Below are positions 45,921 through 62,084 of a stretch of 64,000 nt of DNA, piece by piece (the first letter of the stretch is position 1; every line of letters starts with the position of its first letter). The DNA is from Rhizobium sp. NLR16a (GTDB lineage Bacteria; Pseudomonadota; Alphaproteobacteria; Rhizobiales; Rhizobiaceae): positions 248,001 to 312,000 of the forward strand of contig NZ_CP072868.1 of assembly GCF_017948245.1 (NCBI RefSeq). The letters are read 5' to 3'. The notes below the pieces were generated by a model that was not told the origin of the DNA, did not search any database, and was given only the letters and a program-made list of their open reading frames with translations. The position numbers were made by a program, and so were the translations under genes.

Positions 45921-46076
45921 TTAGATGCGGCCCATTAGTACAAGGATAATGATAATGACCAGAACTAGCCCCAAACCGCCGGAAGGTCCATAGCCCCAGC
46001 CACGGCTATAACCCCAGTTCGGCAGGGCTCCGATCAGGAGCAGAATGAGGATAACGAGAAGTATCGTGCCAAGCAT
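45921..46076 (-). CDS. DUF3309 small membrane protein (51 residues)
   Basis: A 51-codon ORF on the minus strand starting MLGTILLVILILLLIGALPNW, followed by a Gly/Trp/Tyr linker (YSRGWGYGPSGG) and a second hydrophobic segment ending LVLMGRI. This is the DUF3309 pattern: two helices joined by a Gly-rich loop. AAGGA precedes the ATG at 46076. It lies 27 bp upstream of the lipoprotein gene in the same direction. Function unknown; relatives are often stress-linked. Confidence 0.8.
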   Translation of the reverse strand: MLGTILLVILILLLIGALPNWGYSRGWGYGPSGGLGLVLVIIIILVLMGRI

Positions 46077-46173
46077 GGTGTTTTTCCTTCATTTCATCTG
46101 CAATCTGAATGGACAAGAAACACGCATTGGCGATTTTTGTTCCCGGTTGGGCGCGCGAATTAGGATGCGACGC

Positions 46174-46715
46174 GATTCATGGTTTGTGATCCGTCACCCC
46201 TGACAAATCGCCCGTATGGTTAAAAAGACATTGAAATACAACATGTTGCGGCGAACAAAGCAGGAAGATCACGATGTCTCCGATTCGTCGGTGATTCGTT
46301 CCGTTTTTGATCGGTCCGACGGGCAAGCGGGTCAGGCTTAAGGCTGTGTGAATTTGCTCGCCGGAAGATTAACACCGACGTGACGAGATCTTGCCGCCTG
46401 CCCCGCATCTAGCGGGCGGAACATGACGACGCCACCAGATATGGCCGTGAACGAAAGGGGAAAGCAGAGCAGTCGGCGATTCGTCGCCGATTCGTTCCGG
46501 ATTTGATCGAGACGTTAATTTCGGCGGATTTTTCCCTTGGCAAAAAGCGAATGACAGACCTCCGGCAGGGTCACAAAATGCGAACCGGAGAGAGTCCCGC
46601 GATTCAGCATTTAGTAGGAAAAAGTGATTCAAAATCAATACTTAGCCGTGAACAAAAGCTGAATCAGCAGGAGTCAGCGATTCGTCTCTGATTCGTTCTC
46701 ACGCTGTTCCGAATC
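46174..46715. other. Dense cluster of GANTC (CcrM methylation) sites
   Basis: Thirteen GANTC sites were counted by eye, starting at 46174, 46282, 46293, 46478, 46489, 46592, 46601, 46626, 46661, 46671, 46679, 46690 and 46711. Eight fall in the last 124 bp. Random expectation is about one per 256 bp. GANTC is the target of the cell-cycle methyltransferase CcrM in alphaproteobacteria. Two more sites lie at 46876 and 46897, at the start of the helicase gene. Confidence 0.85.
46251..46708. repeat. Three-copy degenerate repeat, about 200-bp spacing
   Basis: Copies run roughly 46251-46317, 46443-46510 and 46645-46708. Each centres on GATTCGTC-N3-GATTCGTTC (cores at 46282, 46478, 46679). The first two copies also share a downstream TTTGATCG, and the last two share upstream GCCGTGAAC and AGTC(A/G)GCGATTCGTC. 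Spacing is 196 and 201 bp. The copies contribute six of the GANTC sites. Confidence 0.7.
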
Positions 46716-46873
46716 GGAAATGCGGACCGTCCGGACGACTCGCAAAAGTCGCAATCCCCGACGCATTTTGAAATCTGCCCTTGCGTTTGCGGCAGTAGCT
46801 GTCCATGTGTTCTGTGCCTCCATCGAGATGGCAAAACTTTTCCCGGGGCGCGCCTGCCTCACTTGCATGGACC

Positions 46874-49800
46874 ATGACTCTGACTTCGCAGCCGATGATT
46901 CTCAGCGGGCGCGGTGTGACCGCGGTGCTTGGACCAACCAATACCGGCAAGACCCATTATGCCATCGAGCGCATGGTCGCACATGGGACCGGCGTGATTG
47001 GCCTGCCACTCAGGCTTTTGGCCCGCGAGGTCTATACGCGGGTGGTGGAGAAGGTCGGCTTGCAGAACGTGGCTCTGGTCACGGGCGAAGAAAAGATTTC
47101 GCCGCCCAATGCGCGTTTTTCCGTTTGCACGGTCGAGGCGATGCCGCGGGAGACCAAAGCCGCCTTTGTCGCGATCGACGAGGTCCAGCTCGCCGGCGAT
47201 CTCGAGCGTGGCCATATCTTCACCGACCGTATCCTGCACCTTCGCGGCCGGGATGAGACGCTGCTTCTGGGCGCGGGGACAATGCGGCCGATCCTGCAGC
47301 AGATCCTGCCCGGCGTCACGATCGTCGAGCGGCCACGGCTTTCGCATCTCCTTTACGCCGGGCAGAAGAAGATCACCCGGCTGCCGCAGCGCTCGGCCAT
47401 CGTCGCCTTTTCCGCCGATGAGGTCTATGCCATCGCCGAGCTCATCCGCCGGCAGCGCGGCGGCGCGGCGGTCGTGCTGGGGGCGCTGAGCCCGCGCACC
47501 CGCAATGCGCAGGTCGCGCTCTATCAGGCGGGCGACGTCGAATATCTGGTGGCGACCGATGCGATCGGCATGGGCCTCAACCTCGACGTCGATCACGTCG
47601 CCTTCGCCCAGGACCGGAAATTCGACGGCTACCAGTTCCGCAACCTCAATCCGGCCGAGCTCGGCCAGATCGCCGGCCGCGCCGGGCGGCACGTGCGGGA
47701 CGGCACCTTCGGTGTCACCGGCCAAGTCTCGCCCTTCGACGAGGAAGTGGTGCAGCGCATCGAGGGACATGAATTCGACAACGTCAAGGTTCTGCAGTGG
47801 CGCACGACGGAGATGGATTTCTCCTCAATTCAGTCGCTGCGCGCCAGCCTGGAGGCCGGGCCGCGCGTGCCCGGGCTGACGCGGGCGCTGCCGGCGGTCG
47901 ATCAGCAGGCGCTCGAGCAGCTTTCGCGCTATCCCGAAGTGATCGACCTCGCCGACAGGCCGGCCCGCGTCGAAAAACTCTGGGAGGCTTGCGCGCTGCC
48001 CGACTACCGGCGTATCACTCCGGCCCAACATGCCGATCTTATTTCGACCCTCTTTTCCGATCTCGTGCGCTATGGCACGGTGAACGAGCAGTTTCTTGCG
48101 GAGCAGGTTCATCGCTCGGATCGAACTGATGGGGAAATTGACACGCTTTCGGCGCGAATCGCGCAGATAAGGACCTGGACCTACGTTTCGAATCGGCCCG
48201 GCTGGCTTGCCGATCCGACACATTGGCAGGAAAAGACGCGGGAAATCGAAGATCGATTGTCCGATGCGTTACATGAAAGGTTGACGAAACGCTTTGTTGA
48301 TCGCAGGACATCTGTGCTCATGAAGCGCCTGAGAGAGAATGCGATGCTGGAAGCTGAAATCAGTGTGAATGGCGATGTCTTCGTTGAAGGACATCATGTA
48401 GGGCAGTTGAGCGGATTCCGTTTCACCCCGGTGGGGGGAACGGATGGACCGGATGCCAAGGCGGTTCAGGCTGCGTCGCAGAAGGCGCTCGCGCTCGAGT
48501 TCGAGGCCCGTGCGGCCCGGCTGCATGCCGCGGGCAATAGCGATCTGGCGATCGGTTCGGATGGCTTGATCCGTTGGCTCGGCGATCCCGTGGCGCGGCT
48601 TTCCGGCAGCGATCACGTCATGCGGCCGCGCGTGATCCTGCTCGCCGACGAGCAGTTGACGGGCAATGCCCGCGATCACGTCGCCGCCCGTATCGAACGT
48701 TTCGTCAATCATCACATCAGCACGGTATTGAAACCGCTCGATGATCTGTCGCGCGCCGAGGATCTGCAGGGCCTCGCCAAGGGACTTGCCTTCCAGCTGG
48801 TCGAAAATCTCGGCGTGCTCTTCCGCCGCGACGTCACCGAAGAGGTGAAGTCGCTGGATCAGGAGGCTCGCGCCTCCATGCGCCGCTACGGCGTGCGTTT
48901 CGGTGCCTATCATATCTTTGTTCCGGCCCTTCTGAAGCCGGCACCTGCCGAACTGATCACGCTGCTCTGGGCGTTGAAGAACGACGGTCTCGACAAGCCG
49001 GGCTACGGCGATCTCATCCCCGTGCTTGCCGCCGGCCGCACCTCGGTCGTCACCGATCCGAGCTTCGAGCGGATGTTCTACAAGCTCGCCGGCTTCCGCT
49101 TCCTCGGCAAGCGCGCCGTGCGCATCGACATTCTGGAGCGGCTTGCCGATATCATCCGTCCGCTGCTGCAATGGAAGCCCGGTCAGAGCAATCGTCCGGA
49201 GGGCGCCTATGACGGTCGCCGTTTCACGACGACGACGGCGATGCTGTCGATTCTCGGGGCGACGCTCGAGGACATGGAAGAGATCCTCAAGGGCCTCGGC
49301 TATCGCGCCGATGCCGTGAAGGCGGAAGAGGCGTCGGCCCATCTTGCGGCGCAGGACGCGGCTTCAGCCCCTGCCGCCTCCGCGGAAACATCCGCGGAAG
49401 AAGCGGCAGAAAAAGCCGATCACGATGATGCCGACGGAGCGACGGAAGAGGCTGTTTCCGAGCCGACCCAAGCCGAGCCGGCTTCGACGGCGGCCGACGT
49501 CCCCGCCACAGAAGCGAACGACAGCAACGCTGCGGCCGAAGTGACCGAGGCAACCGCTTCGGCAGAGACTGCCGCCTCCGGGGAAGCTGGCGAGCCGGCG
49601 GAACCGAAGCCGGTTCTTTTGTGGCGTCTCGGCGGCCGCAATGACAACCATCGCCAAGCACGCGGCGGCCATGGCGAACGCCGGGGCGGCCAGAACCATG
49701 AGCGCGGCGAACGCAATCGCCGTCCGAACGGCGGTGAAGGCGGCGAAGGCAATCGCGGCGGCGACGGGCGCGACAACCGCCACGGCCGCGGCAAGGACGG

Positions 49801-50056
49801 TGGCGGCCGTGACGGTGGCAGACCGCAGCAAGCAAGGGGCGAGCGCAAGGACCAGCCGCGCGGTGATCGTCAGGACCGTGGCGATCGGAAGGACCGCGGC
49901 GAGCGGAACGATCGCAATGACCGTAACGACCGCAACAACAATCGCGGCGCCCAGCCGCTGCGCTTCGAGGCCAAGCCGCCGCGCAAGGAGAAGCCGATCG
50001 ATCCGGATTCTCCCTTCGCCAAGCTCGCAGCTCTCAAGGAACAGATGAAGAAGTAA
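46874..50056 (+). CDS. SUV3-like ATP-dependent RNA helicase with low-complexity tail
   Basis: A 1060-residue superfamily 2 helicase related to mitochondrial SUV3. Walker A GPTNTGKT at 20-27, DEVQ at 102-105 (in place of DEAD/DEAH), and motif VI QIAGRAGR at 265-272; a long alpha-helical region follows to about residue 815. The tail from about 816 is Ala/Glu-rich, then from about 925 Gly/Arg/Asp/Asn-rich with DRND-like repeats, ending in a conserved basic segment (PIDPDSPFAKLAALKEQMKK). It should unwind RNA, probably in decay or ribosome work. ATG at 46874 is chosen; ribosome site is weak. The S4 gene starts two bases after the stop. Confidence 0.9.
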   Translation: MTLTSQPMILSGRGVTAVLGPTNTGKTHYAIERMVAHGTGVIGLPLRLLAREVYTRVVEKVGLQNVALVTGEEKISPPNARFSVCTVEAMPRETKAAFVAIDEVQLAGDLERGHIFTDRILHLRGRDETLLLGAGTMRPILQQILPGVTIVERPRLSHLLYAGQKKITRLPQRSAIVAFSADEVYAIAELIRRQRGGAAVVLGALSPRTRNAQVALYQAGDVEYLVATDAIGMGLNLDVDHVAFAQDRKFDGYQFRNLNPAELGQIAGRAGRHVRDGTFGVTGQVSPFDEEVVQRIEGHEFDNVKVLQWRTTEMDFSSIQSLRASLEAGPRVPGLTRALPAVDQQALEQLSRYPEVIDLADRPARVEKLWEACALPDYRRITPAQHADLISTLFSDLVRYGTVNEQFLAEQVHRSDRTDGEIDTLSARIAQIRTWTYVSNRPGWLADPTHWQEKTREIEDRLSDALHERLTKRFVDRRTSVLMKRLRENAMLEAEISVNGDVFVEGHHVGQLSGFRFTPVGGTDGPDAKAVQAASQKALALEFEARAARLHAAGNSDLAIGSDGLIRWLGDPVARLSGSDHVMRPRVILLADEQLTGNARDHVAARIERFVNHHISTVLKPLDDLSRAEDLQGLAKGLAFQLVENLGVLFRRDVTEEVKSLDQEARASMRRYGVRFGAYHIFVPALLKPAPAELITLLWALKNDGLDKPGYGDLIPVLAAGRTSVVTDPSFERMFYKLAGFRFLGKRAVRIDILERLADIIRPLLQWKPGQSNRPEGAYDGRRFTTTTAMLSILGATLEDMEEILKGLGYRADAVKAEEASAHLAAQDAASAPAASAETSAEEAAEKADHDDADGATEEAVSEPTQAEPASTAADVPATEANDSNAAAEVTEATASAETAASGEAGEPAEPKPVLLWRLGGRNDNHRQARGGHGERRGGQNHERGERNRRPNGGEGGEGNRGGDGRDNRHGRGKDGGGRDGGRPQQARGERKDQPRGDRQDRGDRKDRGERNDRNDRNDRNNNRGAQPLRFEAKPPRKEKPIDPDSPFAKLAALKEQMKK

Positions 50057-50058
50057 TC

Positions 50059-50463
50059 ATGGGCGGGGAGACACAGCCGGCAAGCGGTTCGCGCCAGCGC
50101 ATCGACAAGTGGCTGTTTTTCACGCGCATGGTGAAGTCGCGCTCGCTGGCCCAGAGTCACGTCCAGTCGGGGCACGTGCGCATCAACGGCGAGCGCTGCA
50201 GTCACCCGAGCCAGATGGTCAAGCCGGGCGACCGCGTCGAACTGACGCTGGAGCGGCGCGATGTCATTCTCATCGTGCGTCTCGCCGGGGAGCGGCGGGG
50301 TCCCTACGAGAAGGCCCGCCTGCTCTACGACGACCAATCCCCGCCGCCGGATGAGACAAAACGTCTCACGCCGTATGAGCAAGCGACCCGGGGGGCGGGT
50401 ACCGGCCGTCCGACCAAAAAGGAAAGACGTGCAATCGACAGGCTGATGTCGGACGAGGATTAG
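50059..50463 (+). CDS. S4-domain RNA-binding protein (Hsp15/HslR-like)
   Basis: A 134-residue protein with an S4 domain (RIDKWLFFTRMVKSRSLAQSHVQSGHVRINGERCSHPSQMVKPGDRVEL) and a basic C-terminal tail. In the Hsp15 family the S4 domain binds stalled 50S subunits carrying tRNA. It starts two bases after the helicase stop, so the two are co-translated; that supports a shared RNA function. Confidence 0.88.
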   Translation: MGGETQPASGSRQRIDKWLFFTRMVKSRSLAQSHVQSGHVRINGERCSHPSQMVKPGDRVELTLERRDVILIVRLAGERRGPYEKARLLYDDQSPPPDETKRLTPYEQATRGAGTGRPTKKERRAIDRLMSDED

Positions 50464-50653
50464 AAAACTCTGTCTGTGGCGGCGGCTTTGCAGATCGTTT
50501 ACCCTTGAAATCCGGCGCTAAAGCCGATAGGTCACTGACAACCTGCCGGAAGCGTGCTTGCCTGCCAAGCCTGTCCACGCTTCGCCCGGCACGGGGATAG
50601 GCGCGACGTTCCAGGTTGCCCGGCCCCATCCGCTTGAAATCCTGGAGTTCTTC

Positions 50654-50992
50654 ATGACCTATGTCGTGACCGACAATTGCATCAAGTGCAAATATACCGA
50701 TTGCGTGGAAGTCTGCCCTGTCGACTGCTTTTATGAAGGCGAGAATTTTCTCGTCATCCATCCGGACGAATGCATCGATTGCGGCGTCTGCGAACCGGAA
50801 TGTCCCGCCGAGGCGATCAAGCCGGATACCGAGCCGGGCCTCGACAAGTGGCTGAAGATCAATACCGAATATGCCAGCATTTGGCCGAATATCACGGTCA
50901 AGAAGGATCCGTTGCCGGAGGCCAAGGAAATGGACGGCCAGACCGGAAAATTCGAGAAATATTTCTCCCAAAAGCCGGGTTCCGGCGATTAA
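50654..50992 (+). CDS. fdxA: Seven-iron ferredoxin FdxA
   Basis: A 112-residue ferredoxin. The N-terminal half carries the Cys pattern [19 protein letters not shown] and [18 protein letters not shown], giving one [3Fe-4S] and one [4Fe-4S] cluster; the C-terminal extension ([19 protein letters not shown]) is standard for the FdxA group. GGAG lies six bases before the ATG at 50654; longer upstream readings are not supported. Electron partner unknown. Confidence 0.95.
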
Positions 50993-51385
50993 GACGGCTG
51001 TCCGATTTCGTCGCCGGATGCGGGCCGTTGAGCGGTGAAACGTTTTAAATCCTGCGTCTGGCATATGGGTGATCTGTGTTGCCCGCATGACTCAGACGAA
51101 GCAAATTATTGATTTCCTCATATTTTTGTGATAGGTTTCGCCTACTGTTCCATTTGTGGCATGACGCATGCCCAAAACCATCACGAAAGCAAAACCAATC
51201 CGTACGCGGTTTCCGTGACATATCAACGCTTTGAGCGCCGGGTCCCCAGATCGCGCGCAAGAAGTCCTTGCTTTTGCCTGATGGGACCAGAGTGAAGTCA
51301 CCCGACGGATGCAACCGTCTCAACCGGGCCTGACTGACCCGGCTCCGGCCGCCGCCGGAAGCGTAACAGGGAGTTTTTGAATAGA
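50993..51385. other. Gap between fdxA and the CarD gene
   Basis: About 390 bp. The middle (about 51090-51150) is A/T-rich and may hold the carD promoter, but no -10/-35 pair is convincing. A minus-strand open frame of 92 codons across it has no ribosome site or homology that I recognise. Nothing else assigned. Confidence 0.4.
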
Positions 51386-51958
51386 ATGACGACTCAGCAG
51401 AAAAAGCCTTCTACAGCACGTCACGGCTTCAAGACCGGTGAATCGATCGTCTACCCCGCTCATGGCGTCGGTACCATCACCGCTATCGAAGAGCAAGAAG
51501 TTGCCGGCATGAAGCTCGAACTTTTCGTTATCGATTTCGAAAAGGACAAGATGCGCCTTAAAGTTCCGGTCGCGAAGGCGATGAGCATCGGAATGCGCAA
51601 GCTTTCGGAAACGGATTTCGTCGATCGTGCGTTGAAGGTTGTGCAGGGCAAGGCGCGCGTCAAGCGCACCATGTGGTCCCGCCGCGCCCAGGAATATGAT
51701 GCCAAGATCAATTCCGGTGATCTGATTTCCATCGCTGAAGTCGTGCGTGATCTCTATCGTGCAGAGAACCAGCCCGAGCAGTCCTATTCCGAGCGCCAGC
51801 TCTACGAAGCAGCGCTCGATCGCATGGCGCGCGAAATCGCCGCTGTCAACAAGATGTCGGAAACCGAAGCCGTCCGCCTCGTCGAGACCAATCTCAACAA
51901 GGGTCCGAAGCGCGGCAAGGCGATTGAAGAAGACGATTCGCAGGACGAAGCCGCTTAA
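51386..51958 (+). CDS. CarD/CdnL-family transcription regulator
   Basis: A 190-residue protein with an N-terminal RNA-polymerase-interacting domain (FKTGESIVYPAHGVGTITAIEEQEVAGMKLELFVIDFEKDKMRLKVP) and a helical C-terminal domain with the conserved Trp in RTMWSRRAQEYDAKINSGD. CarD/CdnL proteins bind the beta subunit and stabilise open complexes, notably at rRNA promoters, and are essential or growth-linked. ATG at 51386 is chosen; a TTG at 51377 is too close to AGGGAG. It has its own terminator. Confidence 0.93.
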   Translation: MTTQQKKPSTARHGFKTGESIVYPAHGVGTITAIEEQEVAGMKLELFVIDFEKDKMRLKVPVAKAMSIGMRKLSETDFVDRALKVVQGKARVKRTMWSRRAQEYDAKINSGDLISIAEVVRDLYRAENQPEQSYSERQLYEAALDRMAREIAAVNKMSETEAVRLVETNLNKGPKRGKAIEEDDSQDEAA

Positions 51959-61820: not shown

Positions 61821-61982
61821 CACGCTTTTCCAACACCGCCCATACTGTCATTATTAACATGGTGGCGTTACCGGTCTATCAACAGATTCTATCAGTCATT
61901 AAAGTGTGATGATTCTTGACGGGCCACTCCCGCATGCATTCGGAGTTGATTCGCGGCTCAACTGGGACTAATTAAGGCACTC

Positions 61983-62035
61983 CGTGGTGATTTGGCCGGC
62001 CGGCTTGCAGCCACGTTAAAAAAGTCGCTAAAGGG
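61983..62035 (+). ncRNA. SAM-II riboswitch (metA motif)
   Basis: P1 CGTGG (61983-61987) pairs with CCACG (62011-62015). The conserved pieces, TGATTT after P1, GGCTTGCAGCC before its 3' strand, then TTAAAAAAG and GCTAAAGGG at 62027-62035, match the alphaproteobacterial SAM-II consensus. SAM binding folds an H-type pseudoknot that lowers metA expression. It sits 65 bp before the metA start. Confidence 0.9.
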
Positions 62036-62045
62036 CCGCGTGCGG

Positions 62046-62084
62046 ACCGGTAGCGATTTTTTCGCCGCCGGTTTTTTATTTTTG
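62046..62084 (+). terminator. Putative riboswitch-linked terminator before metA
   Basis: ACCGG (62046-62050) pairs with CCGGT (62068-62072), with GCG/CGC pairing inside, followed by TTTTTTATTTTT. It begins 11 bases after the SAM-II core, so it may act as the transcription-level expression platform. Confidence 0.65.

Follow-up and report, generated by a model that had tools for sequence, protein, structure and literature searches.

Among the closest described counterparts of the element reported here are the promoters regulated by GcrA and CcrM. According to the excerpted passages of PMC7987155, GcrA acts at CcrM-methylated GANTC sites, and in Caulobacter an extended motif, TGATTCG or more broadly YGAKTCK, has been proposed for GcrA activation. 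The same passages report for Brevundimonas no extended-motif preference except a slight one for C before GANTC, describe the GcrA target sets as strongly rewired even between related species, and mention possible overlap of GANTC with the LexA motif GTTC-N7-GTTC (PMC7987155). For NrdR, the excerpts of PMC12051234 give a box-pair expression of C.[AT].A[AT].[AT].G with a spacing of 20–23 letters. Among the matches listed from the open-licence literature the element is undescribed, and it does not appear in the passages seen of PMC11514494, PMC8725594, PMC4409342, PMC3973325, PMC5324124, PMC7403470, PMC3667746, PMC3616915 and PMC11711589; the supplements of the GcrA studies, which were outside this scope, could list the gene.

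A three-copy array upstream of a helicase gene

The window, that is, the whole stretch of 64,000 nt of Rhizobium sp. NLR16a DNA that was analysed, holds 108 GANTC sites, and 13 of these fall at 46174–46715 (542 bp), eight of them within 124 bp (46592–46715). The base composition predicts 1.9 and 0.44 sites, respectively, and elsewhere in the window no 542 bp hold more than 4 sites and no 124 bp more than 3. The counts given by the earlier, sequence-only reading of this DNA were exact on recount. The comparison within the genome covered 864 kb, made up of the window and 40 further 20-kb stretches, or 13.1% of 6.58 Mb, with 1.56 sites per kb overall. There the region ranks first on both scales, with 13 sites per 542 bp against 8 for the runner-up and 8 per 124 bp against 5, so that no equally dense place exists in this sample. 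The cluster is not a product of chance.

The gap holding the cluster is flanked by a divergent DUF3309 gene (start at 46076, minus strand) and by the start of a Suv3-like helicase gene at 46874. Ten of the 13 sites fall in three diverged units of about 120 bp spaced 196 and 201 bp apart, and the features are as follows.

46204–46325, plus strand: copy 1 (distal) of the unit, YGATTCG words at 46281 and 46292
46239–46248, strand-neutral: palindrome C.A.AT.T.G of copy 1, matching the published NrdR-box expression
46400–46521, plus strand: copy 2 (middle) of the unit, YGATTCG words at 46477 and 46488
46435–46444, strand-neutral: palindrome C.A.AT.T.G of copy 2, matching the published NrdR-box expression
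46601–46722, plus strand: copy 3 (helicase-proximal) of the unit, YGATTCG words at 46678 and 46689
46636–46645, strand-neutral: counterpart of the palindrome in copy 3, one letter short of the NrdR-box expression
46601, 46626, 46661, 46671 and 46711: extra GANTC sites of copy 3
46695–46709, plus strand: perfect LexA-type pair GTTC-N7-GTTC of copy 3; the window holds one more such pair
46780–46808, plus strand: promoter-like CTTGCG-N17-CCATGT between array and helicase, judged by eye
46874–50056, plus strand: Suv3-like helicase (PF22527 DEXQc_Suv3, PF00271 Helicase_C), start codon set by comparison of loci
50059–51958, plus strand: genes following the helicase on the same strand, namely an S4-domain protein (50059), a ferredoxin (50651) and a CarD-like protein (51386)

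A sigma factor gene also lies downstream of the helicase, past the CarD-like gene; the passages seen of PMC5324124 describe the Caulobacter CarD homologue cdnL as transcribed from a promoter of its own. Two further observations concern the surroundings. On the minus strand, 5' of the DUF3309 gene, positions 46086–46160 read GGGAACAAAAATCGCCAATGCGTGTT, which we take to resemble an EcfG general-stress promoter, and a SAM_alpha riboswitch (RF00521) at 61974–62051 on the plus strand (81.6 bits) is the window's only Rfam match at gathering score.

Composition and spread of the unit

All three copies share a 54-mer (starts 46248, 46444 and 46645) and a core, GATTCGTC-NNN-GATTCGTTC, at 46282, 46478 and 46679, and each carries two YGATTCG words 11 bp apart, giving six plus-strand words in the array. 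In the Rhizobium sp. NLR16a genome the unit is restricted to this single locus: the core search with up to two mismatches returned the three array copies and one two-mismatch place, and the search with model R1, a sequence-only model built from 81 copies, returned the same three copies and one match at E 0.42.

The consensus was derived from 181 copies, 129 of the genus and 52 of other genera. Counted from the first G of the core, its 5' part consists of C.A.AT.T.G (−43), GTGAACAAA (−31), GAA (−18) and GTCA (−6), and its 3' part of YGATTCG (−1), YGATTCG (10), GTTC (16), G.TC (27) and a weaker GTTAA (36), all at nearly fixed spacing over about 115 bp. The self-similarity of the consensus is maximal at a lag of 11 bp (35.8, against at most 18.8 at the other lags from 3 to 39), a period of about one turn of DNA. 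On the strength of these patterns each unit is best read as two putative GcrA-type YGATTCG sites fused to 11-bp-phased GTTC/GAAC half-sites and a C.A.AT.T.G palindrome. The copies are arranged head-to-tail, most commonly at about 200 or 270–290 bp, with one to five units per locus. In the distal copies of Rhizobium loci ATGGTTAAA is conserved 5' of the palindrome (for example at 46216–46224 in the window), presumably a likeness of a reversed CtrA half-site, and Brevundimonas loci have GGTTAA at nearly the same place.

Selection of the copies limits what may be read from them. GATTCG(T) at the first site was required for the copies of the consensus, of model R1 and of the proximal/distal, LexA-pair and one-step-change comparisons, and its constancy there is no evidence because selection demanded it; the last three sets also required a downstream helicase P-loop motif. 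Left out were L001–L003, which duplicate the own locus, L004 and L118 (weak matches in the own genome), L212 and above (not element loci), and L078/L113 (one chance match carrying a mismatch, its flanks not conserved).

No loss of the cluster in close relatives was observed: of 148 sampled genomes of the genus, 145 have the core when up to two mismatches are allowed, and a control with the reversed core pattern gave 0 or 1 match per genome. In the family, a search allowing one mismatch found the core in 127 of 199 genomes (74 of 109 genera). At E <= 0.01 model R1 finds matches in 186/249 genomes (83/111 genera) of the order and 34/289 genomes (26/224 genera) of the class, the weakest class matches (26–44 bases, E near 0.01) being possibly due to chance. 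The exact pattern of the variant seen outside the family is present in 53 stretches, including those of Brevundimonas, Phenylobacterium, Caulobacter ginsengisoli, Parvibaculum and Cohaesibacter. The best reading of this distribution is that the unit would be an ancient alphaproteobacterial element, present in several orders.

The best-kept word of the unit, YGATTCG, fits YGAKTCK, so that the array holds GANTC in the context proposed for GcrA. All 81 aligned copies have Y before GATTCG (GATTCGT was itself a selection rule), and YGATTCG is present in all 25 model matches at 22 loci outside the family, where the word was not required and the model had been built from copies having it. The two words stand together at 11 bp in 75/81 aligned copies and 10/25 of these outside-family matches; such pairs are absent from an 800-kb sample of the genome and number three in the window, all in the array. 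Other families have often lost the second GANTC and yet kept much of TTCGTTC; therefore, GANTC is not the whole constraint, and a reading based on CcrM only leaves the retention of TTCGTTC unexplained.

GcrA is encoded in the genome (PF07750 match, E 3.5e-59). Matches to it occur in 179 of 289 class genomes. By hand count about 100 have an unbroken GcrA match at E <= 1e-27, and these include all 27 genomes with the element at E <= 1e-4, a co-occurrence in which related genomes are not independent. Most of these strong-GcrA genomes have no match to the element.

The proximal copy and its gene

Outside the core, 77 non-redundant helicase-proximal copies hold 2.44 GANTC per copy, whereas 200 shuffles gave a mean of 0.51 (sd 0.09, largest 0.75); the 70 distal copies hold 0.47, against 0.48 in shuffles. 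The extra proximal sites lie mainly at −78, −18, −8, +22 and +32, and proximal GANTC amount to 5.65 per 150 bp in the own family (37 copies) and 2.67 in the 40 others. At these five sites 17 of 37 one-step changes hit the middle base, where neutrality predicts 1 in 5 (p 3e-4, only indicative since the copies are related). All nine such changes at −78 and +22 are of this kind; at −18, 3 of 14 hit the middle base and 11 of 14 the fixed letters of GANTC.

The GTTC-N7-GTTC pair at +16/+27 is perfect in 34/37 own-family proximal copies, 13/40 other proximal copies and 4/70 distal copies. In the window the LexA-operator form is found at 46695–46709, and GAACACATATGGAAC, of the same form, lies just 5' of the genome's best LexA-family match. 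Judged by these sequence features, the helicase-proximal copy is best read as a putative specialised operator.

The palindrome brings NrdR into consideration. It fits the published box expression in 53/77 proximal and 51/70 distal copies, and a second box stands exactly 31 bp upstream in 10/77 and 3/70 copies, respectively; none of the other distances between 20 and 45 has more than 2. In the window two of the three main boxes fit the expression and none of the three partner boxes does; a looser count yields one near-pair, with 11 of 12 letters and 32 bp apart, at 46403. One of the genome's two reductase loci has a 31-bp near-pair of 11 of 12 letters, and at the other reductase locus a near-pair of 11/12 letters is absent. 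The window copies are not called NrdR sites because they have no full partner box, and NrdR control was rejected since they do not satisfy the published pair expression. NrdR is present in 27/27 class genomes with a strong element match, which says little because it is present in 249/289 genomes anyway.

Between array and helicase, CTTGCG-N17-CCATGT lies about 90 bp 3' of the proximal core; it is retained in 9 of 12 aligned Rhizobium loci and differs in the other three. The distance from the core to the helicase P-loop motif ranges from 141 to 604 bp. By eye, promoter-like sequences stand between the element and the helicase start in other genera too (L095–L112, order and class loci), and in Brevundimonas and Parvibaculum so close to it that the message may begin near the first codon.

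Among the rows listed, the helicase lies 3' of the element in 17 of 18 longer family loci, the exception, L113, being a chance match, and a helicase ORF adjoins the element in 28 of the 30 loci L119–L148 (8 of the family, 22 outside), the two without one being L139 and L142. Five stretches with the element have no helicase match (L149, L150, L151, L156 and L157), L156 and L157 being wider stretches around two of the other three. The link between element and helicase is strong and not absolute, because some element loci lack the helicase. In L149 and L150, from two genomes of one genus (G531 and G509), the element lies near a small predicted protein (132 and 153 aa) with a signal-like start, and each genome has a second element match elsewhere; L151 (G368) has three tandem element copies without a helicase match, and the other match of that genome is on another contig.

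Competing readings and comparison with known systems

The unit is a conserved composite module, probably read by GcrA and a LexA-type factor. The fuller proposal, that the cluster is a tandem cis-regulatory element serving the Suv3-like helicase and read by GcrA/CcrM together with a LexA-type regulator, we consider to have about an even chance of being right. It builds on the observed sequence, its conservation, its fit to published motifs and the specialisation of the proximal copy. CcrM would methylate the GANTC sites of the array, and passage of the replication fork would leave them half-methylated; GcrA, recruited to methylated YGATTCG, would aid sigma70 RNA polymerase at the helicase promoter, and a LexA-type repressor would compete for the overlapping GTTC half-sites and leave after DNA damage. 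From the sequence we infer binding at the array, its methylation state, the direction of the effect and the damage response.

The sequence-only reading had proposed methylation-dependent, cell-cycle-tied control of the helicase operon. The conserved cluster, the GcrA-type word, the extra GANTC confined to proximal copies and the usual adjacency of the helicase speak for such control, which, to judge from these motifs, would be the most economical reading and now has a specific motif behind it; against it stand the constraint beyond GANTC and, in the excerpts of PMC7987155, the lack of an extended-motif preference in Brevundimonas. The main weak points are that the array lies at least about 90 bp 5' of the promoter-like sequence, that the distance to the gene varies and that some loci have no helicase; the loss of the second-site GANTC and the imperfect LexA-type pair outside the family, together with the Brevundimonas data, also count against it, as do the lack of the element in most GcrA-bearing class genomes and the one-step changes at −18, which mostly fall on fixed letters. 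The earlier statement that nothing else in the region explains the sites did not survive, as the tandem composite units also hold the LexA-type pair, the 11-bp repeats and the NrdR-box-like palindrome.

The strongest competitor is a dedicated protein reading the 11-bp direct repeats, such as an OmpR-type regulator, with the core GANTC a by-product of its recognition sequence. The self-similarity peak at 11 bp, the spacing fixed over about 115 bp, the survival of much of TTCGTTC after loss of the second GANTC and the confinement of the unit to a single locus in this genome would all suit such a protein, which, however, leaves unexplained both the extra GANTC with a free middle base found only in proximal copies and the fit to YGAKTCK; we regard it as possible and clearly less probable than control by GcrA/CcrM and a LexA-type regulator.

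A chromosomal site independent of the gene, acting in the timing of half-methylation, sequestration or nucleoid organisation and kept beside the helicase by chance, appears improbable. The parS centromere word is TGTTTCACGTGAAACA-like. In 30 related genomes the best element match and the parS words are separated by 34 to 608 kb (distances by hand), hence by at least 34 kb, and in Rhizobium chromosomes by about 115–130 kb (by hand). This mapping is only suggestive of an origin-linked site: origin-near housekeeping genes show the same pattern, about a third of the genome lies between element and parS in G639, and the second match of G531 lies about 1.5 Mb from parS. Tandem copies, a distance to the gene that varies and element loci lacking the helicase would agree with such a site; the link to one gene over several orders (28/30 loci) argues against it, and the sequestration or segregation site offered by the sequence-only reading found no direct support.

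Tandem small-RNA genes or a structured leader RNA, to which the head-to-tail copies at about 200 or 270–290 bp might point, are very improbable and a structured small RNA was rejected, given that the array has no Rfam match at gathering score (weak matches are at chance level) and no conserved fold (consensus −2.27 kcal/mol, 0 pairs changed on both sides), that it contains no terminator-like site, and that the palindrome and the 11-bp phasing suit DNA recognition. Two smaller candidates were also rejected: pairs on either side of the first GATTCGTC resemble a hairpin in some copies, but RNAalifold gave no pairs with both sides changed, and a sigma70 promoter inside the unit would have a −10-like C.A.AT, but the conservation is palindromic and by eye no fitting −35 is present. 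A general scan, in which 0.6 promoter-like and 1.0 terminator-like sites were expected, found one weak site of the first kind and two of the second, the latter outside the array.

Beyond the proposed control of the helicase by GcrA/CcrM and a LexA-type regulator, a broader and speculative scheme, which we think unlikely to hold in full, may be drawn from the motifs: a single nucleoprotein platform of about 115 bp would read the replication state (CcrM/GcrA), DNA damage (a LexA-type factor) and perhaps nucleotide supply (an NrdR-like factor), tandem copies tuning the dose, and its position beside a Suv3-like RNA helicase would couple RNA turnover to chromosome replication over much of the class. 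If methylation-linked control is true, the locus, with its GcrA-type word retained at a single gene across several orders, would be a candidate core target and suited to asking how one site is shared by LexA, GcrA and the methylation state, and an RNA helicase without a known cell-cycle role would be tied to the replication cycle.

Compared with the NrdR box pairs of ribonucleotide reductase promoters, as described in the excerpts of PMC12051234, the element shares the palindrome C.A.AT.T.G and, in copies where a second box fits, almost always the 31-bp distance; it is not at a reductase gene, and the partner box is rare and fits in none of the window's copies. With alphaproteobacterial LexA (SOS) operators it shares GTTC-N7-GTTC at 46695–46709; unlike them, this pair is part of a larger conserved unit that also carries GcrA-type words, and it lies about 70 bp 5' of the promoter-like sequence. 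Distal copies and many other families have a degenerate form of the pair. Unlike GcrA or LexA sites overlapping a promoter, the array lies 5' of the promoter-like sequence. In contrast to GcrA/CcrM-regulated promoters, the words of the array stand in tandem at 11 bp and in one to five units; with those promoters of Caulobacter and Brevundimonas, as far as the excerpts of PMC7987155 describe them, the array has in common the YGAKTCK context and a GcrA gene in the genome.
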